DNA of 64,000 bases from Burkholderiaceae bacterium (GTDB lineage Bacteria > Pseudomonadota > Gammaproteobacteria > Burkholderiales > Burkholderiaceae_C): NCBI GenBank assembly GCA_023150375.1, contig JAKLLA010000002.1, positions 248,001 through 312,000 of the forward strand, written 5' to 3'. Numbering within the stretch: position 1 is the stretch's first letter; each line of letters opens with the position of its first letter. The position numbers and the translations under genes are program-made. The notes below the pieces were generated by a model. It was not told the DNA's origin, made no database searches, and saw only the letters and a program-made list of their open reading frames with translations. Positions 18,510 through 59,888 of the stretch are shown here, piece after piece.

Positions 18510-20684
18510 ATGGTGCCCATGAACCCGACTCTTCCTTCCGTTCCGATCGATCTCGCCCCCGACGAACTGGCCGACATGGTGCAGCGCCTGATGCGCATCG
18601 AACGGGATCTGGAGGCCCAGACCGACCTGCTGCGCACGGTGCTGGACGAAAGCCCGGACTTCGTCATCCTGAAGGACCATGCCGGCAACTTCCTGCTGTG
18701 CAATCGCCCGGTGGCGAACTTCTACGGCACGACGCCGGAGGCCATGGTCGGCAAGAGCGACATCGATTTCGGCTGCCCGCCCGAGATGGCCGAGTCCTTC
18801 CGCCGCAACGTCCTCGACATCATGGCGCGCGGCGAGACCGAGATCGTCTACGAAGAATCCCGCGACGCCCGCAACGGCCGCATCAACCACTTCAAGTCGA
18901 TCAAGAAGCCCTTCACCGGACCGGACGGGCTGCCGCGCATCCTGGTGATCGCACACGACATCACCGACCTGCGCGAGGCCCAGCTGCGCGTGGAGGACAG
19001 CGAGCGGCGCCTGCAGCACGCCCTCGAGGCCACCGGCGACGCGGTCTGGGACTGGCACCTGCCCAGCGGCGGCCTGACCCTGAGCCGGCGCTGGTGCGAG
19101 ATCCTCGGCTATGCGCCTGCGGACCTGGAGGGCAACCTGAGCGACTTCATGCGCTGCCTGCTCGACGAGGAATCCGCCGCCGTGGACGCAGCGCTGCGCC
19201 GCGCCCTGGAGGGCCAAGGCAGCTACCTGCACGAGCACCGCATGCGCCGCAAGGACGGCAGTGTGATCTGGGTGATCGACCGCGGCCGCGTGGTCGAGCG
19301 CGACGACCAGGGGCGCCCGCTGCGCATGGTGGGCAGCGTCTCGGACATCACCGACCAGAAACGCGCGCAGGATCTGATCTGGCAGCAGGCCAACTTCGAC
19401 ACCCTCACCGGACTGCCCAACCGGCACATGTTCCAGGACCGGCTGGCCGGACAGATGCGCGCCAGCGACCGCAGCGGCCGCCCCTGTGCCCTGCTGATGC
19501 TCGACCTCGACCAGTTCAAGGAGATCAACGACTCGCTCGGCCACGCCTGGGGCGATGTGCTGCTGCAGGAGGCCGCCCAGCGGCTGCGCTACTGCGTGCG
19601 CGATACCGACCTGGTGGCACGGCTGGGCGGCGACGAGTTCATGGTCCTGCTGGGCGAGCTGACGGACTCGCAGGCGGTGGCCCGGGTGGCGCACGAGGTG
19701 ATGCAGGCCCTGGCGCAACCCTTCCGGCTCGGCGCCGACCTGGTCTACGTGACCGCCAGCGCCGGGGTGACCTTCTATCCGCACGATGCGGCCAGCCCCG
19801 AGGAGCTGCTGCGCAACGTCGACCAGGCGATGTACGCGGCCAAGCGCAGCGGCCGCAACGCCTGCCGCTACTTCACCCCGGCGATGCAGGTGGCCGCGCA
19901 GGACCGCATGCGGCTGATCTCCGACCTGCGCCTGGCGCTGGCGCAGCAGCAGTTCCACCTGTGCTACCAGCCCATCGTCGAGCTGACCGGCGGGCGCATC
20001 CGCAAGGCCGAGGCGCTGATCCGCTGGCAGCACCCGGAGCGCGGCTTCATCAGCCCGGCCGAGTTCATCCCGGCAGCCGAGGCCACCGGGATGATCCACG
20101 AACTGGGCGACTGGGTGTTCCACGAGGCGGCGCGGCAGGTCGCGCGCTGGCGTCGCAGCCACCCGACCTTCCAGGTCAGCGTGAACGTCTCGCCGCTGCA
20201 GTTCCAGAACGGGCGGCTGGCGCTGGCGGCCTGGCTGCACCACCTGACCAGCCTGGGCACCGACGGCCACAGCATGGTGGTGGAGATCACCGAGGGCCTG
20301 CTGATGGAGGCCGGTCCCGAAGTGACGCAGCAGATGCTGCGCTTTCGCGATGCCGGCGTGCAGGTCGCGCTGGACGACTTCGGCACCGGCTACTCGTCGC
20401 TGGCCTACCTGAACCGGCTGGACATCGACTACATCAAGATCGACCGCTCCTTCGTCTGCAACCTGCGGCCGGACTCGCCCGACCTGGCGCTGTGCGAAGG
20501 CATCGTGATGATGGCCCACAAGCTGGGCCTGAAGGTGGTGGCCGAGGGCGTGGAGACGCCCGAGCAGCTCGCCCTGCTGCGCAGCGCCGGCTGCGACTAC
20601 GGCCAGGGCTATCTGTTCTCGCGGCCGGTGACCGCCGACCGGCTGGACCAGCTGCTGGCGCAGCCGCAGGCCCTGGCGGCCTGA
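18510..20684 (+). CDS. PAS-PAS-GGDEF-EAL c-di-GMP turnover protein
   Basis: The 724-residue soluble protein begins with a short coiled segment and a first PAS domain ([20 protein letters not shown] to [10 protein letters not shown], about 40-160). A second PAS/PAC follows ([19 protein letters not shown] to [12 protein letters not shown]). The GGDEF domain has an intact [12 protein letters not shown] active site and an inhibitory RxxD site (RDTD) five residues before it. The EAL domain is also intact: [44 protein letters not shown]. Both activities could therefore work, with direction set by the PAS input. The start may be the ATG at 18519 (MNPTLP). It is convergent with ftsB. Confidence 0.96.
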
Positions 20685-31133: not shown

Positions 31134-32264
31134 TTGTCTGCCTCGCTGTCCTCCCCCACCCTCACCCGCCTGCGCTGGCATCGCTGGCTGCCCGCCGATC
31201 CGAAGCGGCGGCTGCGGGCCGGGCAGACCGCCCTGGCCTGTCTGTTCAGCCTGGCGTCGGTGGCCTTCATGGCCTACGGCGTCGCGGTGGATCTGGTGTC
31301 GGCGCAGGCGCTGTGGATCTGGGTGCTGCTGGTGAGCGCCGGCAGCGCCGGCTTCGTCACCGCGATTGCCAGCGGCTGGTCGGAGCGCTTCGCCGACCCT
31401 TCGCTGACCGTGGCGCAGATGGCCTACGCGATCGGCTGCTGCGCCTGGGCCTACGCCGTGGCCGGGCCGCTGCGCGGCGGCCTGTTCCTGCTGCTGATGG
31501 TGGTGATGATGTTCGGCATGTTCGCCCTGCCGCTGCGGCGGATGCTGGGCGTCTGCGCGGTCTCGGTGCTGACGATGGGCCTGGCGATGGTCTGGCAGGT
31601 GAACCAGCCCCAGGGCGGCACGCCTGCGGCCGTCGAGGCCGGCCACCTGCTGATGCTGCTGGTCACACTGCCGGCGGTGGCGCTGCTGGCCGCTCGGCTG
31701 CGCCAGATGCGCAAGCGGCTGCTGCGGCAGAAGGCCGAGCTGGCCGAGGCGCTGGCGCGCATCCAGTACCTGGCCACGCGCGATGCGCTGACCGGGCTGG
31801 TCAACCGCGGCCACCTAGGCGAGCTGCTGGCGCGTGAAGTGCAGCGCCAGCGCCGCAAGGGTGCGCGGCTGAGCGTACTTCTGATCGATGTGGACCACTT
31901 CAAGCAGGTCAACGACCGCCACGGCCACGCCTGCGGCGACGCGGTGCTGCGCAGCCTGGCCGAGCGGTCCCTGGACTGCGTGCGCGCCAGCGATACGCTG
32001 GGCCGCTGGGGCGGTGAGGAGTTCCTGCTGCTGATGCCCGACACCGGACTGGAGGACGCCCGCACCGGCGCCGAGCGGCTGCGCCTGCACCTGGCCCGCG
32101 AGGCGGTGCAGCATCAGGGCCTCACGGTCCCGGTGACCATGTCGGGCGGTCTGGCCGAGCTGCGCGACGGGGAGTCGCCCGAGGCCCTGCTCGAGCGCGC
32201 CGACCAGGCGCTCTACCGCGCCAAGGCGCTGGGGCGCAACCGGGTCGAGGCCGCAGCGGGCTGA
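31134..32264 (+). CDS. membrane-anchored diguanylate cyclase
   Basis: The 376-residue protein has about six N-terminal membrane segments (residues 30-190), a short coiled linker (LRQMRKRLLRQKAELAEALARIQ) and a GGDEF domain. The active site is RWGGEEFLLLMPDTG, preceded by an inhibitory RxxD site (RASD). The start has to be a TTG at 31134, because no ATG is placed suitably before the first membrane segment. The membrane part does not resemble a named sensor. It is convergent with the acyl-CoA synthetase gene. Confidence 0.92.
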   Translation: MSASLSSPTLTRLRWHRWLPADPKRRLRAGQTALACLFSLASVAFMAYGVAVDLVSAQALWIWVLLVSAGSAGFVTAIASGWSERFADPSLTVAQMAYAIGCCAWAYAVAGPLRGGLFLLLMVVMMFGMFALPLRRMLGVCAVSVLTMGLAMVWQVNQPQGGTPAAVEAGHLLMLLVTLPAVALLAARLRQMRKRLLRQKAELAEALARIQYLATRDALTGLVNRGHLGELLAREVQRQRRKGARLSVLLIDVDHFKQVNDRHGHACGDAVLRSLAERSLDCVRASDTLGRWGGEEFLLLMPDTGLEDARTGAERLRLHLAREAVQHQGLTVPVTMSGGLAELRDGESPEALLERADQALYRAKALGRNRVEAAAG

Positions 32265-52318: not shown

Positions 52319-55075
52319 TCAGAGATCGGCGGCGAGCTGGCGCATCTCCTCGAGGCCGATCTTGCCGGCCAGCATCTTCTCGATGCCGTCCTGGCGCAGC
52401 GACTTCATGCCGTCCCTGACCGCCTGGCGGTGCAGGTTCCAGGCCGGCGCGCCGGCGCGCAGCAGGCGGCGCATCTCGCGGCCGACCGTCAGCAGCTCGT
52501 GCACGGCCACCTGGCGGGCCGGGGTGCCCGGGCCGCAGCGCTCGCAACCGGGGCTCTGGTAGCGGCGCAGCTTGCCTTCGCGGCCGAAGCGCTCGATCCA
52601 GCTGCGCAGCAGCGCCTCGCGGTCCGCCTCGGCGTCCTCGGCGCTGCCGCTGCTGCCGTGCAGGTAGGCGTCGAGCCACTCCTGCACCTCGTTGTCCTTG
52701 GCCGGCCGGCTCATCCGGCAGCCGCTGCACAGGCGGCGCAGCAGGCGCTGGCTGTGCACGCCCAGCAGCGCATCGGCCAGGCTCCAGCGGTCGATGCCCT
52801 GGTCGAGCAGGCGCATCAGGCCGTCGGCGGCGCCGCGTCCGGGCAGGGCCCCCAGCACCAGGCGGCCCGACAGCGCGGCGTCCACCGCAGCGCGGGCCGC
52901 CGCCGGATCACGCAGGTCGGCCACCATGACGACGTCGGCATCGCCCTGCTGCACCGCCTGAAGACCCTGCGCGAAGTCCATGCCGCCGCCGGGGCGCAGT
53001 TCCATCTGGCGCAGGCCGGGCTGGCTGAGTTCGATGCGCTCCTCGATCGACCAGAGGCGACGCTCGGGGCGGTTCAGATGCGCCAGGGCGGCATGCAGCG
53101 TGGTGGTGCGGCCGCTGCGCGGCGGCGCCACATGCAGGATCAGCCCGCTGCTGCGCGCCAGCATGGCCGTCCAGCGGCCCAGGTCGTCACCCGACAGGCC
53201 CAGCCCGTCGAGCTTCATCGGCTTGAGCACCGACGGCAGACCGATCACCAGGTCCTCCAGTCCGCCGCTGCTGGGCAGGGTGGCGACATGCAGATCGACC
53301 TTGTGCGCCGGCGCCAGCCGGCCGAACGACAGCCGGCCCTGCTGGGCGCGGCGGGTCTCGGTGGCGTCCAGTTCGGCCAGCGCCTTGATGCGCGGAATCA
53401 GCGTGTTGCGCAGCGCCGCCGGCAGCGCCGGCAGGGTTTCGAGCTGGCCGTCGCGGCGCAGGCGCACCTGCAGGCCGTCCTCGCCGGGCAGGCATTCCAG
53501 GTGGATGCGGCTGGCGCCCTTGGCCAGGGCCTCGCTGACCAGGCTGACGAAGGCCTGCACCACCGGGCTGTCGGCCCGCTCCAGGCGGGCCCGGCCGCGC
53601 AGTTCGCCACTCGCGCCGCTCACGCTGCCCGGACCGCCGGCGCCGCGCGCGCCGGCCAGGGCCGCCGCCAGGGCCGGTGCGGCCGGTGCCGCCGGGGCCA
53701 GGTCGCCCATGCGGGAGGCGCGACCCCGGCCGGGCCGGCTCTCCGTCGCGTCGAAGGGCGCCAGGCCCGAGGGCTGCGCCGGGCCGGGCCGCGAGGCGGC
53801 CGACGCGCGCGGCCGCGGCACGTCGATCAGTTCGGCGGTCAGCACCGGGAAGGCCGGCATGTCCGACGACGGCCCCGGATCGGCAGCCGGCGGTTGCAGC
53901 GCCGCGTAGGCGCGCTCGATCGCCGCCGGCAGGTCGCCGGCGCCGGCCAGCGCCGGCAGCACCGCGCACTGCGCGACATCCTTCAGGGTGGCCAGCAGGT
54001 CGTCGCGGCTGGCGTCGGCCATGGCCACCACCAGGCGGCCGCCGCGGCGCAGCAGCGGCAGCACGCCCAGGCGGCGTGCCAGGTCGCCCGGCACCAGGCG
54101 CAGCGCCTCGACATCGACCGCGAAGGTGGACACGTCCACCACCGGCACGCCCATCTTGCGCGCCAGGGCCACGCGCACCTCGTCGGCGCTGACCAGGCCG
54201 CGCTGCACCAGCACCTCGCCGATCGGCTGGGCGCGCTCGACCTCCTGCTGGTGCAGGGCCCGCTGCAGCGTGTCCTCGTCGGTGAAGCCCAGCGCCACCA
54301 GGGCCTCGCCCAGGCGCACCAGGGGCATGCGGGCCTGCTTGTCCAGCGCCACCAGCAGCTGCTCGGGCGTCACCACCTGGCGCGCCAGCAGGATGTCGCC
54401 GAGCTTCTGCGCGCGCAGCCGGCGCTGCGCCTCCACGCCCTGCTCGATCTGGCGGCTGCGCTCGAGGTCGCCCTCGGCCAGCAGATCGCCCAGGCGCTCG
54501 CCGACCTGGCTGCGCTCGATCGCCACGCGGGGGATGAAGTGCCGCTCCACCGAGCCCTGCTCGTCCTTGGGCTCGAAGAGGAACAGCCCGATGGAATTCT
54601 CGACATGGGTGACGGTGCGGCCCTGGTAGACCGTGCCGCCCACCAGCGTGACCTCGTAGGGCTGCACCGGATGGTGCGTGAGCAGCGGTGCCTGCGCGGG
54701 GTCGAGGCTGCCGGCCATCTCCGGCTGCAGCAGCAGGGCGCGCAGCGGACGCTGCAGGGTCAGGCGGCGGATCTGCGCGAAGCGCAGCGGCATCGCGGCC
54801 TTTTCGCCGGGCACCTGCACGCGCGCCACACCCTCCTGCGGCTCGAAGACGGTCAGCAGACCGGAGATGAAGCTGCCGCTGCGGCTTTCGACCACGCAGG
54901 GCTCGGGCTCGATCTGGCAGGTCGGCGACGGGTAGGCCGGCAGCGGCGGCGTCGGCCAGGCAAAAGGCTCGGCACGGCTGCCGCCGGGCGCAGCCGAGGG
55001 GGCCCCCGGGTGGGCACGGTGCAGCTCCTCGTCGAGCGGAACCAGGGTCAGCGGCGGCAGGGACAGGTCGGACAT
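52319..55075 (-). CDS. GspE/PilB-like protein with MshEN-type repeats and degenerate ATPase motifs
   Basis: The 918-residue protein is homologous to type II secretion/type IV pilus ATPases in its C-terminal half, including the zinc tetracysteine (CSGCR and CERCG). Key positions are changed: Walker A reads PPRSGRTTT (Arg656 for Lys), the Walker B region reads VVMVADLRD where active enzymes have GEIRD (Ala719 for Glu), and the histidine box LHTNDA is ALPGRGA. Residues 190-310 hold four segments spaced 30 residues apart (RLGDLL at 194, KLGDIL at 224, RLGEAL at 254, PIGEVL at 284) resembling tandem MshEN c-di-GMP-binding modules. Residues 60-190 are an unrecognised N-terminal region. No pilus or secretion genes are adjacent. 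It is convergent with mutL. Confidence 0.88.
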   Translation of the reverse strand: MSDLSLPPLTLVPLDEELHRAHPGAPSAAPGGSRAEPFAWPTPPLPAYPSPTCQIEPEPCVVESRSGSFISGLLTVFEPQEGVARVQVPGEKAAMPLRFAQIRRLTLQRPLRALLLQPEMAGSLDPAQAPLLTHHPVQPYEVTLVGGTVYQGRTVTHVENSIGLFLFEPKDEQGSVERHFIPRVAIERSQVGERLGDLLAEGDLERSRQIEQGVEAQRRLRAQKLGDILLARQVVTPEQLLVALDKQARMPLVRLGEALVALGFTDEDTLQRALHQQEVERAQPIGEVLVQRGLVSADEVRVALARKMGVPVVDVSTFAVDVEALRLVPGDLARRLGVLPLLRRGGRLVVAMADASRDDLLATLKDVAQCAVLPALAGAGDLPAAIERAYAALQPPAADPGPSSDMPAFPVLTAELIDVPRPRASAASRPGPAQPSGLAPFDATESRPGRGRASRMGDLAPAAPAAPALAAALAGARGAGGPGSVSGASGELRGRARLERADSPVVQAFVSLVSEALAKGASRIHLECLPGEDGLQVRLRRDGQLETLPALPAALRNTLIPRIKALAELDATETRRAQQGRLSFGRLAPAHKVDLHVATLPSSGGLEDLVIGLPSVLKPMKLDGLGLSGDDLGRWTAMLARSSGLILHVAPPRSGRTTTLHAALAHLNRPERRLWSIEERIELSQPGLRQMELRPGGGMDFAQGLQAVQQGDADVVMVADLRDPAAARAAVDAALSGRLVLGALPGRGAADGLMRLLDQGIDRWSLADALLGVHSQRLLRRLCSGCRMSRPAKDNEVQEWLDAYLHGSSGSAEDAEADREALLRSWIERFGREGKLRRYQSPGCERCGPGTPARQVAVHELLTVGREMRRLLRAGAPAWNLHRQAVRDGMKSLRQDGIEKMLAGKIGLEEMRQLAADL

Positions 55076-55241: not shown

Positions 55242-56534
55242 CTACCCGGCCGGCGCCTGCAGGCTCAGTTCGACGGCGAAGCCCTGCGGCACCGGCAGCA
55301 GCTGCAGCCGCCCGCCATGCGCGCGCGCCACCATGTCGGCCAGCATCAGGCCCAGGCCGGTGTGCCCTTCGTAGGTCTGCGCGTCCAGCGCCTGCTGCAG
55401 CGCCTCGCGGCGCGGCGCGTCCACGCCGGGCCCGTCGTCGTCCAGCCGGACCCGCCCGGCGGCGGGCAGCGACAGCCGTACCCGGCGCGCGCCGTGCCGC
55501 ACCGCGTTGTCCAGCAGGTTGACCAGCGCGGCGGTGAGCAGGTCGGGGTCGGCCACCAGCGTGGCCTCGGGCGGCACCTCGACGGCCAGCCCGTCGGCCG
55601 GCAGCCGCGCCAGCAGCGCGGCCAGTTCCACCGGCTGGAGGTGCAGCTCCGCGCCGCTGCGAAACAGCGCCAGCAGCGCGGCCACCACCCGCTGCAGGCG
55701 TGCGGCCGCCTCGCGCACCCGCTGCAGGCGCGGCTGCAGCGGCGCGGGCGCTTCGCGCAGCGCGACGGCCAGCTGCGCATCGATGCCCGCCAGCGGCGTG
55801 CGCAGGGCGTGCGCCGCATGGGCGGTGAAAGCCCGCTCGTGGCCGATGCGCCGCGCCAGACGACGGGCCAGATCGTCGATCGCGGTCTGCACCGGCTGCA
55901 GCTCGGCGCGCTCGGCCACGCCCAGCCCGGCGCCGGCCTGCAATGGATCGTGCTGCGCCAGCCGGCGGCTGAGCCGGTTCAGCGGCGCCAGCTCGTGGCG
56001 CACCCGGGCGCGCAACCAGACATGGCCCAGCAAGCCGATGGCCAGCGCCGCCAGCGCCGCGCTCAGCGCCACATCGGCCTGTGCTTCGACGCGCTCGGCC
56101 TGGGTCTGGCCCACATAGAGCATGCGCCCGCTGGCATCCAGCGGCAACCCGTAGACCCGCCAGGTGTCGAGGCTGCTGTAGCCCGACGGCGCCACCCAGG
56201 GCTGCATCGGCGCCGCGACCGAGCGCATCTGCAGCCGCGCGCCGGGCCCGACCACCTGCCAGGCGAAGCGGCCCGCGCCCGGATCGGCCACCACGCCGGC
56301 CGGTCCCGACGCCTGCGGCGGGCGGGCCAGGCCCTCGGGCGGCGGGGTCGCGGCATTGCCGTCGGCCAGCAGCGTGGCCAGCACATGCGCGGAGCTGAGC
56401 AGGGTGTCGTCCAGCAGTTCGAGGGTCTCCTCGCGCGCAGCCAGCCAGACCGCGCCGGCCACCGCAAGGCTCCAGACCACCGACCAACCCAGCAGCGCGC
56501 GCGCCAGGCGGCGTCCGATCGCCGGCAGGCTCAT
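55242..56534 (-). CDS. sensor histidine kinase (QseC/PmrB-like)
   Basis: The 430-residue inner-membrane kinase has two membrane segments (residues 12-32 and about 150-170) around a periplasmic sensor of roughly 120 residues. The phospho-acceptor block is FTAHAAHALRTPLAGIDAQL, and the ATP-binding domain shows LVNLLDNAVRHGA, LDDDGPGVD and TGLGLMLADMVARAHGG. It resembles QseC, PmrB and TctE kinases. It starts 49 bases after the response regulator. Proximity to eptA and PAP2 suggests envelope-stress or cationic-peptide sensing (inference). Confidence 0.95.
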   Translation of the reverse strand: MSLPAIGRRLARALLGWSVVWSLAVAGAVWLAAREETLELLDDTLLSSAHVLATLLADGNAATPPPEGLARPPQASGPAGVVADPGAGRFAWQVVGPGARLQMRSVAAPMQPWVAPSGYSSLDTWRVYGLPLDASGRMLYVGQTQAERVEAQADVALSAALAALAIGLLGHVWLRARVRHELAPLNRLSRRLAQHDPLQAGAGLGVAERAELQPVQTAIDDLARRLARRIGHERAFTAHAAHALRTPLAGIDAQLAVALREAPAPLQPRLQRVREAAARLQRVVAALLALFRSGAELHLQPVELAALLARLPADGLAVEVPPEATLVADPDLLTAALVNLLDNAVRHGARRVRLSLPAAGRVRLDDDGPGVDAPRREALQQALDAQTYEGHTGLGLMLADMVARAHGGRLQLLPVPQGFAVELSLQAPAG

Positions 56535-56583
56535 CGCGGCCTCCGCCGGCCAGGCTCGGCGCCGGACCCCGCGCCGTCGGGCC

Positions 56584-57243
56584 TCATGAGGGCAGCCCGA
56601 CGCGGTAGCCCAGGCCGCGCACGGTATCGATCAGCTCGCGCCCGAGCTTGCGGCGCAGGGCCGAGACATGCACCTCCAGCGCGTTGCTGGCCAGCTCGGC
56701 CTCGAAGCCCAGCACCAGCCGCTCCAGGTCGGCCTTGGAGACGATGCGCCCGGCGCGCCGCACCAGCGCCTCGAGCACCGCCCACTCGCGCGCGGTCAGC
56801 TCCACCGCCCGGCCGTCCAGCGACACGCTGCGGGCCGTGAGGTCGACCTCGACAGCGCCGAAGCGGCGCCGCGCGCTGGGGCTGCCGGCGGCACGGCGCG
56901 ACACCGCGCGCAGCCGGGCAGCCAGTTCCTCCGGCTCGAAGGGTTTGACCAGGTAGTCGTCGGCGCCGCTGTCCAGGCCCTGGATGCGGTCGCCGAGCCG
57001 GTCGCGCGCCGTCAGCATCAGCGCCGGCGTGACATCGCCGCGGTGGCGCTGCTCGCGCAGCCACTCCAGACCGGAGCCGTCGGGCAGCTGCCAGTCCACC
57101 AGCAGCGCGTCGTAGGGCTCGCCGAGGCAGGCCCGGGCCTCGGCCAGGCGGCGGCACCAGTCCACCGCGTGGCCCTCGGCGCGCAGATAGTCGCGCAGGC
57201 CTTCGCCGAGGATGTCGTCGTCTTCGAGCAGCAGCAGTCGCAT
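56584..57243 (-). CDS. OmpR-family response regulator (QseB/PmrA-like)
   Basis: The 219-residue regulator has a receiver domain (LLLEDDDILGEGL, phospho-acceptor Asp50 in LLVDWQLPDGSG, conserved Lys in DYLVKPFEP) and a winged-helix DNA-binding domain (VELTAREWAVLEALVRRAGRIVSKADLERL, ALEVHVSALRRKLG, IDTVRGLGYRV). It is divergent from eptA across 184 bases that contain a direct repeat suited to this family. The start was set at MRLLLLEDDD; the track's 392-residue version includes shadow sequence. Confidence 0.97.
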   Translation of the reverse strand: MRLLLLEDDDILGEGLRDYLRAEGHAVDWCRRLAEARACLGEPYDALLVDWQLPDGSGLEWLREQRHRGDVTPALMLTARDRLGDRIQGLDSGADDYLVKPFEPEELAARLRAVSRRAAGSPSARRRFGAVEVDLTARSVSLDGRAVELTAREWAVLEALVRRAGRIVSKADLERLVLGFEAELASNALEVHVSALRRKLGRELIDTVRGLGYRVGLPS

Positions 57244-57366
57244 GATCGGGCAGGCAGTCGGGTCGGCACCGGCCGACGACCGCAACGGTACACCAGTGCG
57301 GCCCGCCGGTACGGCCGGGACGACGGCAAAGCCTCCGGTCGGCTCCTCGCTCCCGGCCCCGGCAGG

Positions 57367-57383
57367 CTTCACCTTCGCTTCAC
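57367..57383 (+). promoter_or_regulatory. PmrA/QseB-like direct-repeat box upstream of eptA
   Basis: CTTCAC-N5-CTTCAC gives two identical hexamers in an 11-base phase, the geometry used by OmpR-family dimers (PmrA-type boxes have CTTAAT-N5-CTTAAT-like repeats). A third CTTCAT begins at 57388. The site ends 44 bases before the eptA ATG and lies between the regulator gene and eptA. Confidence 0.5.
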
Positions 57384-57427
57384 GCCACTTCATGTCGTCT
57401 TCAGTGGGCGCCGGCAAGCTCCAGCGC

Positions 57428-59134
57428 ATGAACTGGAAATTCCGTGCTGCCGGCCGTGCTGCCGGCGCCGCCGCGTCTGCCGAACGAACCGCCGCACCGG
57501 CCTTCGTCATTCCCGCCACCACCGAGCAGCTGCTCGGCCTGGCCTGCCTGTTCTGGGCCCTGGCGGCCAACCGGCTGTTCTTCGGCGCGGCCCTGAAGGA
57601 CCATTCGCTGGGCGACGCCTCCGCCTGGGGCTTCGCCGTCGCGCTGGTCGTGCTGCTGGTGAGCGTGCACTTCCTGCTGCTGGCACCGCTGGCGAACCGC
57701 TGGACCGTCAAGCCCATCGTCGCGCTGCTGATCCTGGTCAGCGCCTTCGCGACCTTCTTCATGAAGCGCTACGGCGTCTTCCTGGACCCGACGATGATGC
57801 GCAACGTGCTGCGCAGCGACCTGCACGAGGCCGGCGAGCTGCTGACCTGGACCCTGCTGCCGCACCTGCTGCTCTATGCGCTGCTGCCGATGCTGCTGCT
57901 CTGGCGGGTGCAGGTGCAGCACCGCCCCTGGCGCCGGGCGCTGGCCTGGCGGCTGGGTGTCGCGCTGCTGGCCCTGGCCGCGGCGGCCGGCGCGCTGCTG
58001 GCGGTGTTCCAGCCGCTGGCCTCGCTGATGCGCAACCACAAGGAGGTGCGCTACCTGGTGACCCCGGCCAACGCCCTGTGGTCGATCGGCGCCGTGCTCG
58101 CGTCGGACGCCCGCGGCGCCGCCCGGCCGCGCCAGCCCATCGGCGAGGACGCCCGGCCGGGGGCCACCTGGACGGCACTGGAGCGCCCGCGCCTGCTGGT
58201 GCTGGTGGTGGGCGAAACCGCCCGGGCCGCCAACTGGGGCCTGAACGGCTATGCCCGCCCCACCACGCCGTCTCTGGCGGCACTGCCGGTGATCAATTTC
58301 CCGGACGTCACCGCCTGCGGCACCAACACCGAGACCTCGCTGCCCTGCATGTTCGCCCCGGTGGGCCGGCGCGACTACGACGAAGACCGCATCCGCGGCA
58401 GCGAATCGCTGCTGCACGTGGCCGCACGCGCGGGCGTGGCGGTGCAGTGGCGCGACAACCAGTCCGGCTGCAAGGGCGTCTGCGAGGGCCTGCCCAGCGA
58501 GCGGGTGATCGATCTGCCGCCCCCGGGCCTGTGTGGTGACGGCCGCTGCCTGGACGAAGGTCTGCTGCACGGCCTGGACGCGCGGCTCGCCGCGGCCAAG
58601 GGGGTGCAGCTGCTCGTGCTGCACCCGCTGGGCAACCACGGCCCGTCCTACTTCCGCCGCTACCCGAAGGCCTTCGCCCGCTTCCAGCCGGCCTGCGAAT
58701 CGGACGACCTGCGCCAGTGCAGCCGCGAGGAGATCGTCAACGCCTACGACAACGCGCTGCTCTACACCGACCACGTGCTGGCGCGGCTGATCGGCACGCT
58801 GCAGGCGCGCGCCGACCGGGTCGACAGCGCGGTGCTGTACGTCTCCGACCACGGCGAATCGCTGGGCGAGAACAACCTCTTCCTGCACGGCGTGCCCTAC
58901 GCGATCGCCCCGCAGGTGCAGACCCGCGTGCCGATGACGCTGTGGCTGTCCGAGGGCTGGCGCCAGGCCCTGGACCTGGACCTGGACTGCCTGCAGCGCC
59001 GCGCCGGAGAGCCGACAGCGCACGACCATCTCTTCCACACCCTGCTGGGCCTGCTCGACGTGCAGACCGGCCTGTACGCCCGCGACTGGGACCTCACGGC
59101 CGGCTGCCGCCGCGACGTGGTGGCATCGCGCTGA
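57428..59134 (+). CDS. eptA: lipid A phosphoethanolamine transferase
   Basis: The 568-residue inner-membrane enzyme has five N-terminal membrane segments and a periplasmic sulfatase-fold domain. It transfers phosphoethanolamine to lipid A, which lowers surface charge and polymyxin sensitivity. Landmarks are the nucleophile in VVGETARAANWGLNGYARPTTP, VTACGTNTETSLPCMF, YDNALLYTDHVL and SDHGESLGENNLFLHG. Several cysteines in the soluble domain fit the usual disulfides. The start was placed at MNWKFRAA; an ATG at 57392 would overlap the regulatory repeat. A PAP2 gene follows after 10 bases. Confidence 0.95.
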   Translation: MNWKFRAAGRAAGAAASAERTAAPAFVIPATTEQLLGLACLFWALAANRLFFGAALKDHSLGDASAWGFAVALVVLLVSVHFLLLAPLANRWTVKPIVALLILVSAFATFFMKRYGVFLDPTMMRNVLRSDLHEAGELLTWTLLPHLLLYALLPMLLLWRVQVQHRPWRRALAWRLGVALLALAAAAGALLAVFQPLASLMRNHKEVRYLVTPANALWSIGAVLASDARGAARPRQPIGEDARPGATWTALERPRLLVLVVGETARAANWGLNGYARPTTPSLAALPVINFPDVTACGTNTETSLPCMFAPVGRRDYDEDRIRGSESLLHVAARAGVAVQWRDNQSGCKGVCEGLPSERVIDLPPPGLCGDGRCLDEGLLHGLDARLAAAKGVQLLVLHPLGNHGPSYFRRYPKAFARFQPACESDDLRQCSREEIVNAYDNALLYTDHVLARLIGTLQARADRVDSAVLYVSDHGESLGENNLFLHGVPYAIAPQVQTRVPMTLWLSEGWRQALDLDLDCLQRRAGEPTAHDHLFHTLLGLLDVQTGLYARDWDLTAGCRRDVVASR

Positions 59135-59144
59135 AGGGTTCGCC

Positions 59145-59888
59145 ATGTCGACCGGCCTGCCGCCTGCCGTCCTGCCCGTCACCTTGCCCGTCACCTTGCC
59201 TGTGACCTTGCCTGTGACCTTGCCCGCTCCCCTCGCGCGGCCCCTCTGGCGCCGCGATGCAGCCGTGGCCGTGCTCGGTCTCGTTTTGCTGCTGGCCTGG
59301 GACTTCAGCGGCCTGGACCTGGCCGTGCTGCGCCTGTTCGGCAACGCCCAGGGCTTTGCCTGGCGCAGCCACTGGCTGGCTCGCGATGTGCTGCACGAGG
59401 GCGGGCGCCTGCTGGCCTGGGCGGCCTTCTTCATGCTGTGTCTGGACCTGCGCTTCACGTTTCTGCCCGGACCGAGCCGTCGCGAGCGCGCCTGGGGCGT
59501 GGCGGCCACGCTGGCCTGCCTGGTGGCCATCCCGACGCTCAAGCGCTTCAGCGCGACGAGCTGCCCCTGGGATCTGGCCGAGTTCGGCGGCCGGGCCGAC
59601 TACGTCTCCCACTGGGCGATGGGCCTGTCCGACGGCGGGCCAGGGCACTGCTTTCCCTCCGGCCACGCGGTGGCGGCCTTCGCCTTCCTGTCGCCCTACT
59701 TCCTGCTGCGGGCGCACCGTCCGGTGGCCGCGCGCCGCTGGCTGATCGGCGTGCTGCTGGTGGGCGCAGCCTTCGGGGCCGCCCAGCTGGCGCGGGGCGC
59801 CCATCCGCCAAGTCACACGCTGTGGTCGGCCTGGCTGTGCTGGGTGATCTGCGCCGGCATGGCGGCCTGGACGGCCCGGCCACGGTGA
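59145..59888 (+). CDS. PAP2-family membrane phosphatase
   Basis: The 247-residue protein has about six membrane segments and the phosphatase motifs KRFSATSCPWDL, PGHCFPSGHAVAAFAF and the ARGAHPPSHTLWSAW region (Arg/His of motif 3). PAP2 enzymes of this type near eptA act on lipid A or undecaprenyl phosphates, and could recycle or free phosphate sites for EptA. It is probably in the eptA operon. The first 30 residues contain four VTLP repeats, so the true start may be one of the GTG codons at 59202 or 59214. Confidence 0.92.
   Translation: MSTGLPPAVLPVTLPVTLPVTLPVTLPAPLARPLWRRDAAVAVLGLVLLLAWDFSGLDLAVLRLFGNAQGFAWRSHWLARDVLHEGGRLLAWAAFFMLCLDLRFTFLPGPSRRERAWGVAATLACLVAIPTLKRFSATSCPWDLAEFGGRADYVSHWAMGLSDGGPGHCFPSGHAVAAFAFLSPYFLLRAHRPVAARRWLIGVLLVGAAFGAAQLARGAHPPSHTLWSAWLCWVICAGMAAWTARPR
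59178..59225 (+). repeat. four tandem 12-bp repeats encoding VTLP
   Basis: Units are GTCACCTTGCCC, GTCACCTTGCCT, GTGACCTTGCCT and GTGACCTTGCCC, with differences only at two positions. They sit at the very start of the PAP2 gene, before the first membrane segment. Confidence 0.95.

Follow-up and report, generated by a model that had tools for sequence, protein, structure and literature searches.

A candidate genus-wide pseudo-ATPase of the PilB/GspE family that keeps its c-di-GMP motif

The stretch of DNA analysed here (the window, 64,000 nucleotides from a Burkholderiaceae bacterium) encodes on its reverse strand a protein of the PilB/GspE (T2SSE) family (Table 1). The sequence-only reading of this DNA had seen in it a PilB/GspE homologue that retains the ATPase fold, and the profile searches agree: the protein was matched by PF00437 (Pfam) with an E value of 1.3e-63 (215 bits, cut-off 24.9) and by Pfam MshEN with an E value of 4.1e-15 (56 bits, cut-off 23.1), and the NCBIfam MshE-related c-di-GMP motif was found in three stretches (80.5 bits, cut-off 38). 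T2SSE, MshEN and the zinc site are parts that are already known. The protein stays far below the cut-offs of the NCBIfam equivalogs for PilB (295 of 676 bits) and GspE (256 of 630 bits), which an intact orthologue also fails to reach (547 and 483 bits), and its nearest solved structures are those of Thermus thermophilus PilF and G. metallireducens PilB. A structure prediction for the whole protein, made from a two-row alignment, gave a pLDDT of 39 and the model was discarded. The window's genome also carries intact PilB, GspE and MshE.

Table 1. Features of the putative pseudo-ATPase gene, in window coordinates
Feature	Residues	Position	Strand	Basis
Gene for putative PilB/GspE (T2SSE) family pseudo-ATPase, 918 aa		52319..55075	(-)	ORF and domain profiles; orthologues in 13/13 genus genomes, 12 complete
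N-terminal domain, weakly DUF6982-like; first half predicted Sm/Hfq-like beta-barrel	53-192	54500..54919	(-)	PF22478; AF2; Foldseek
MshEN-type segment 1 (RLG..), degenerate at position 10	194-217	54425..54496	(-)	motif comparison
MshEN-type segment 2 (KLG..Q)	224-247	54335..54406	(-)	motif comparison
MshEN-type segment 3 (RLG..Q), best c-di-GMP motif match	254-277	54245..54316	(-)	motif comparison
MshEN-type segment 4 (PIG..K)	284-307	54155..54226	(-)	motif comparison; Pro also in T. thermophilus GSPII-C (PMC11731258)
MshEN/GSPII C-terminal subdomain	308-392	53900..54154	(-)	PF05157
T2SSE (PilB/GspE) ATPase-fold region	501-911	52343..53575	(-)	PF00437
Lost arginine finger, Gly612 (R286 of G. 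metallireducens PilB)	612	53240..53242	(-)	alignment; PMC5424180
Degenerate Walker A, APPRSGRTT (K656R)	650-658	53102..53128	(-)	alignment
Altered Asp box, IEERIE (E682 kept)	677-682	53030..53047	(-)	alignment
Walker B region, DADVVMVADLRD (catalytic Glu = D720)	712-723	52907..52942	(-)	alignment
Lost His box, SGRLVLGALPGRGA (H738R, H745P, N747R)	736-749	52829..52870	(-)	alignment
Zinc site part 1, C783 and C786	783-786	52718..52729	(-)	alignment
Zinc site part 2, C844 and C847	844-847	52535..52546	(-)	alignment

Residue roles were taken as published for G. metallireducens PilB (PMC5424180), and residues were counted in an alignment of the 12 complete copies from the genus, 113 orthologues of other genera and the genome's own GspE, PilB and MshE. 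The window copy reads PPRSGRTT at Walker A, IEERIE at the Asp box and VMVADLRD at Walker B. The Walker A lysine is replaced by arginine (K656R) in all 12 genus copies and kept in 111 of the 113 homologues from other genera; the catalytic glutamate at 720 has given way to D, G, H, T or Q throughout the genus (12/12) and is kept in 112/113 outside. Both histidines of the His box have been lost from every genus copy, the first to arginine (H738R; His in 112/113 outside) and the second to P, T or Q at position 745, and N747R is likewise common to all 12, the ancestral residue standing in 110/113 outside. The arginine in Walker A, the ADLRD sequence in the Walker B glutamate region and the loss of the His box had all been recognised in the sequence-only reading. 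A further loss, which it had not mentioned, is that of an arginine finger: position 612, the equivalent of R286, is Gly or Thr in 12/12 genus copies, with the ancestral residue in 112/113 outside. At the second arginine finger (R271 equivalent) the window copy has histidine (H596), and 10 of the 12 genus copies have arginine. The genome's own GspE, PilB and MshE paralogues all keep the ancestral residue at 656, 720, 612, 738 and 747.

The claim that all ATPase motifs are degenerate has, however, to be softened to nearly all. The Mg-binding glutamate of the Asp box (E682, E357 of G. metallireducens PilB) is present in the window copy and in 11 of the 12 genus copies, and GRTT, the skeleton of Walker A (T657/T658), persists in the window copy; since both persist, some nucleotide binding is possible. 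Arg575 is retained in 12/12 genus copies, as are the four zinc cysteines (C783, C786, C844 and C847), in line with the retained zinc site described earlier. The same losses in all 12 copies of the genus, nearly absent elsewhere, put the pattern far beyond chance, and identical changes in 12 genomes rule out an error of sequencing or assembly. The sequence-only reading had looked to orthologues for the same substitutions and had held that intact Walker motifs there would tell against it. We found both: five losses are fixed within the genus and nearly absent outside, where the intact Walker A lysine is the rule, which marks a loss in one lineage and is no argument for activity of the window protein. 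The pseudo-ATPase interpretation is well supported, by losses fixed in the genus at five catalytic positions and by purifying selection on the gene (below), and catalysis has very probably been lost from the window protein.

The gene was found in all 13 genomes of the genus examined, one copy (G007) being truncated at the edge of its contig. Orthologues that share the N-terminal domain and whose motifs are mostly intact are widespread, 79 of the 141 sampled genera of the family matching an N-terminal query, some of them weakly; one orthologue comes from an Ideonella MAG. In the tree the genus copies form one clade (support 100*), nested among the intact orthologues and borne on a long stem (1.02). 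A second, intact orthologue copy was not found in the genus, the next best matches being the PilB, GspE and MshE relatives at ~34-39%. Between close pairs within the genus dN/dS was 0.14-0.32, compared with 0.12-0.28 between intact pairs, indicating that the gene is not decaying.

Conservation among intact orthologues is highest in the RecA region (mean identity 0.80) and lowest in the N-domain (0.43); within the genus the corresponding values are 0.62 and 0.57, and the second repeat stands at 0.69 within the genus and 0.70 within the intact group. Ancestrally invariant sites have been kept by the genus at 33 of 89 positions in the RecA region, at 21 of 25 in the repeats and at 16 of 21 in the C-terminal part. 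By this comparison of sequences, the ATPase core of the genus has lost its extra constraint and the c-di-GMP motif has kept its own. Several lost sites have been fixed to a new residue in the genus (656R, 680R, 738R, 747R, 764W and 766L), and about one third of the lost sites are re-fixed to one new residue across the 12 species, which favours altered function over mere decay. Outside the genus, the orthologue of G014 (L107) has lost every motif, and that of G254 (L205) has GSGTTT at Walker A and a broken His box, three members of the latter's genus (G024, G171 and G323) being intact. These two orthologues have degenerated independently of the window's genus in two other lineages; with at least two such additional losses, the change from motor to non-motor seems to be one that evolution can make repeatedly.

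Ahead of the ATPase region, the four RLG/KLG-type segments noted earlier do lie at exact 30-residue steps, beginning with RLG, KLG, RLG and PIG at residues 194, 224, 254 and 284. MshEN carries two copies of the published consensus RLGxx(L/V/I)2xxG(L/V/I)2xxxxLxxxLxxQ (PMC5013675). Segment 3 fits this consensus nearly in full across the genus, and segment 4 departs from it at both ends, with Pro in position 1 and Lys in place of the final Gln; the two segments ahead of them are both imperfect, segment 1 generally. T. thermophilus GSPII-C, with Pro at motif position 1, binds c-di-GMP about as well as MshEN (PMC11731258). Residues R254, G256, L274, Q277 and G286 of the c-di-GMP motif are present in 12/12 genus copies, and sensing of c-di-GMP by the window protein would be consistent with this conservation. 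The window's genome has ~50 GGDEF matches, two of them within the window, which encodes a PAS-GGDEF-EAL protein at 18510-20684 and a GGDEF protein at 31134-32264. Stand-alone copies of the N-terminal and MshEN parts lie directly before an intact full-length gene at two loci (L122:5709-6797 and L123), and a profile search confirmed that T2SSE is absent from the sensor-only paralogue of L122; with such paralogues adjoining intact copies, the front half appears to be used alone elsewhere.

PF22478 (DUF6982) matched the N-terminal domain in 15 of 21 members (best E 3.3e-5), the window copy staying below the cut-off (14.8 bits against a gathering score of 24.5, E 0.031). In the AF2 model, which is usable for one barrel only, the first half of the domain forms a five-stranded barrel (pLDDT 72-83), and Foldseek aligned this barrel with Hfq; the best-fitting entries superposed at an rmsd of 1.6-2.0 Å across ~54 columns, and the E values were weak (~0.05-0.2). 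A profile search of the PDB with the N-terminal domain returned no solved relative by sequence. Residues 53-192 may form tandem Sm/Hfq-like barrels, which we offer as a lead only; the likeness is worth a look because Hfq binds PilB1 in Synechocystis (PMC7690835).

The earlier statement that no pilus or secretion genes are nearby is borne out by the neighbours scanned in the window. As to origin, however, it is misleading, because a PilC/GspF-like platform gene lies within ~5 kb of the orthologue in 19 other genomes of 8 genera. At four loci the orthologue is followed within at most ~45 bp by a second PilB/GspE-like ATPase and then by a GspF/PilC-like platform protein; ATPase and platform genes at orthologue loci were identified by profiles (L102, L119). 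Since orthologues adjoin a platform gene and a second ATPase, the ancestor was probably a motor, one of two ATPases in a type IV filament machine. TRAP-transporter and hydantoinase-like genes, named by reading their sequences, are conserved upstream in other genera; we set them aside as shared gene order, not function.

Within the window's genus the gene adjoins mutL at 7 of the 9 loci compared, the window included. In G002 and G008 it stands directly before a bactofilin-Roadblock cluster, beside bactofilin, TPR, receiver-like and Roadblock/LC7 genes. A cluster of bactofilin, TPR, receiver-like, 212-aa and Roadblock/LC7 genes is present both in G002 (L113) and in the window's genome (L240, on C1), with a Roadblock protein 97% identical between the species. 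As the neighbourhood varies within the genus, gene order fixes no partner. The window's genome lacks a close platform relative; platform relatives are present in G003 and G009 of the genus and missing from G000 and G001, as they are from many genomes with an intact copy, and among the genomes compared we found no link between platform presence and motif intactness. Loss of a matching platform is thus unsupported as a cause. At window positions 55242-59888, a sensor kinase and a response regulator adjoin an EptA/EptB-like phosphoethanolamine transferase and a PAP2 phosphatase, a gene order that, among the genus loci compared, only G012 shares.

The protein is like the PilB/GspE/MshE extension ATPases (PilT-like, PF00437) in its domain order (MshEN-N2D-RecA-zinc), its T2SSE score and its zinc tetracysteine; unlike them, it lacks the Walker A lysine, the catalytic glutamate, one arginine finger and the His-box histidines, has an extra N-terminal domain and scores below the NCBIfam PilB and GspE cut-offs. 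With T. thermophilus PilF, which has three GSPII domains of which GSPII-B and -C bind c-di-GMP, it shares repeated MshEN-type motifs ahead of the ATPase part and, with GSPII-C, a second motif that opens with proline. PilF, however, has a canonical Walker A and is a working ATPase, whereas the ATPase motifs have been lost here.

With the ATP-burning residues lost, the c-di-GMP part kept and the counterparts in related genera intact, the protein has probably ceased to be an engine and become a regulator. It would descend from an extension-type motor of the PilB/GspE/MshE class that served a type IV filament machine and was regulated by c-di-GMP. It would no longer complete the ATP cycle, while retaining the zinc site and many core-fold residues along with the N-terminal domain and the MshEN region for c-di-GMP binding. 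Its most likely role would be that of a c-di-GMP-gated regulatory subunit: c-di-GMP bound to the MshEN repeats would alter the contact of the protein with the cell's working motors or platforms, or with an exopolysaccharide pathway, and the altered contact would switch these up or down. We infer the lack of ATPase activity, the binding of c-di-GMP and the identity of the partner, and hold it somewhat better than an even chance that this is a genus-wide pseudo-ATPase serving as a c-di-GMP-gated regulator of pilus/secretion machinery or of exopolysaccharide control. The sequence-only interpretation holds in part.

The regulator could alternatively take a signalling form of the kind seen with Myxococcus xanthus PilB K327A, which has no ATPase activity and yet gives stronger EPS signalling than the active forms (PMC5544727). 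That case is like ours in that a PilB-class protein unable to hydrolyse ATP can still act, there in EPS control, and unlike it in that K327A is a laboratory mutant of a working motor, whereas the change found here arose in nature, is fixed throughout a genus and comes with additional losses. The joint action of two extension motors in Acinetobacter baylyi (PMC8213720) is a further precedent for the regulator reading.

Four rival explanations were weighed. If the Walker A arginine and the Mg-binding glutamate bind nucleotide, the protein could be a slow ATPase or an ATP-binding switch that moves without full hydrolysis, for which the kept T657/T658 skeleton, E682 (11/12), Arg575 (12/12) and one arginine finger (10/12) would be the remaining equipment. 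We consider this unlikely: the catalytic glutamate, the other arginine finger and both His-box histidines are gone from 12/12 copies, the K and E at the equivalent places are required for activity of M. xanthus PilB (PMC5544727), and the window copy is without the second arginine finger as well. The protein could also be a mechanical co-subunit carrying no c-di-GMP signal, placed in a mixed ring with PilB, GspE or another motor or forming a second, dependent ring. In Acinetobacter baylyi two extension motors work jointly, PilB and TfpB both being needed for normal extension (PMC8213720); like TfpB, the window protein is PilB-like and shares its cell with PilB itself, and its intact orthologues adjoin a second PilB-like ATPase gene at the four loci read. 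TfpB, however, is described as a motor, whereas the window protein lacks the catalytic residues and differs in N-terminal architecture, and in the genus loci examined the gene is not near other motor genes. We rate this reading as rather improbable.

Functionless decay after the loss of the protein's own machine might be suspected from the vanished extra conservation of the RecA region and from the absence of a close platform relative in the window's genome. We rejected the decay of a useless gene, and rate it very improbable, given the open frames of all complete copies, the dN/dS of 0.14-0.32, the one third of lost sites re-fixed in 12 species and the zinc cysteines in 12/12; nor does platform presence track intactness. 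It is barely credible, finally, that the ATP site was rebuilt for another anionic ligand. New invariant arginines would mark such a site (K656R, P680R, H738R and N747R in 12/12 and, mostly, G653R in 10/12), while other lost sites such as 720 and 745 vary; but high G+C coding favours Arg codons. A long shot along these lines is that four or five invariant arginines rebuilt the former ATP pocket for an anionic signal or a nucleic acid as a second input beside c-di-GMP, together with the predicted Sm/Hfq-like N-terminal barrels.

The ATPases that drive pili and type II secretion have been seen as engines, and Myxococcus offers hints of a signalling role for PilB as well. Here evolution seems to have separated the engine from the signal, since one family has a complete ATPase in most genera and a broken, conserved form in one. 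A literature search, covering few subscription journals, found no natural, genus-wide, conserved pseudo-ATPase of the PilB/GspE type. Intact and broken pairs allow a direct test of the function of a PilB-type protein without ATP turnover, and also of whether c-di-GMP acts via the N-terminal region alone.

The genus has a second GspE-like protein with degrading motifs, encoded in the window's genome at L161:7726-9846 (C10), with relatives at L242, L243, L244 and L245. Its Walker A reads GSGSSST in the window's genome, and GSGKTS, together with a lost His box, in G012; Asp- and His-box losses occur in G009, G001 and G004, and the copy of G001 also has Arg in Walker A.
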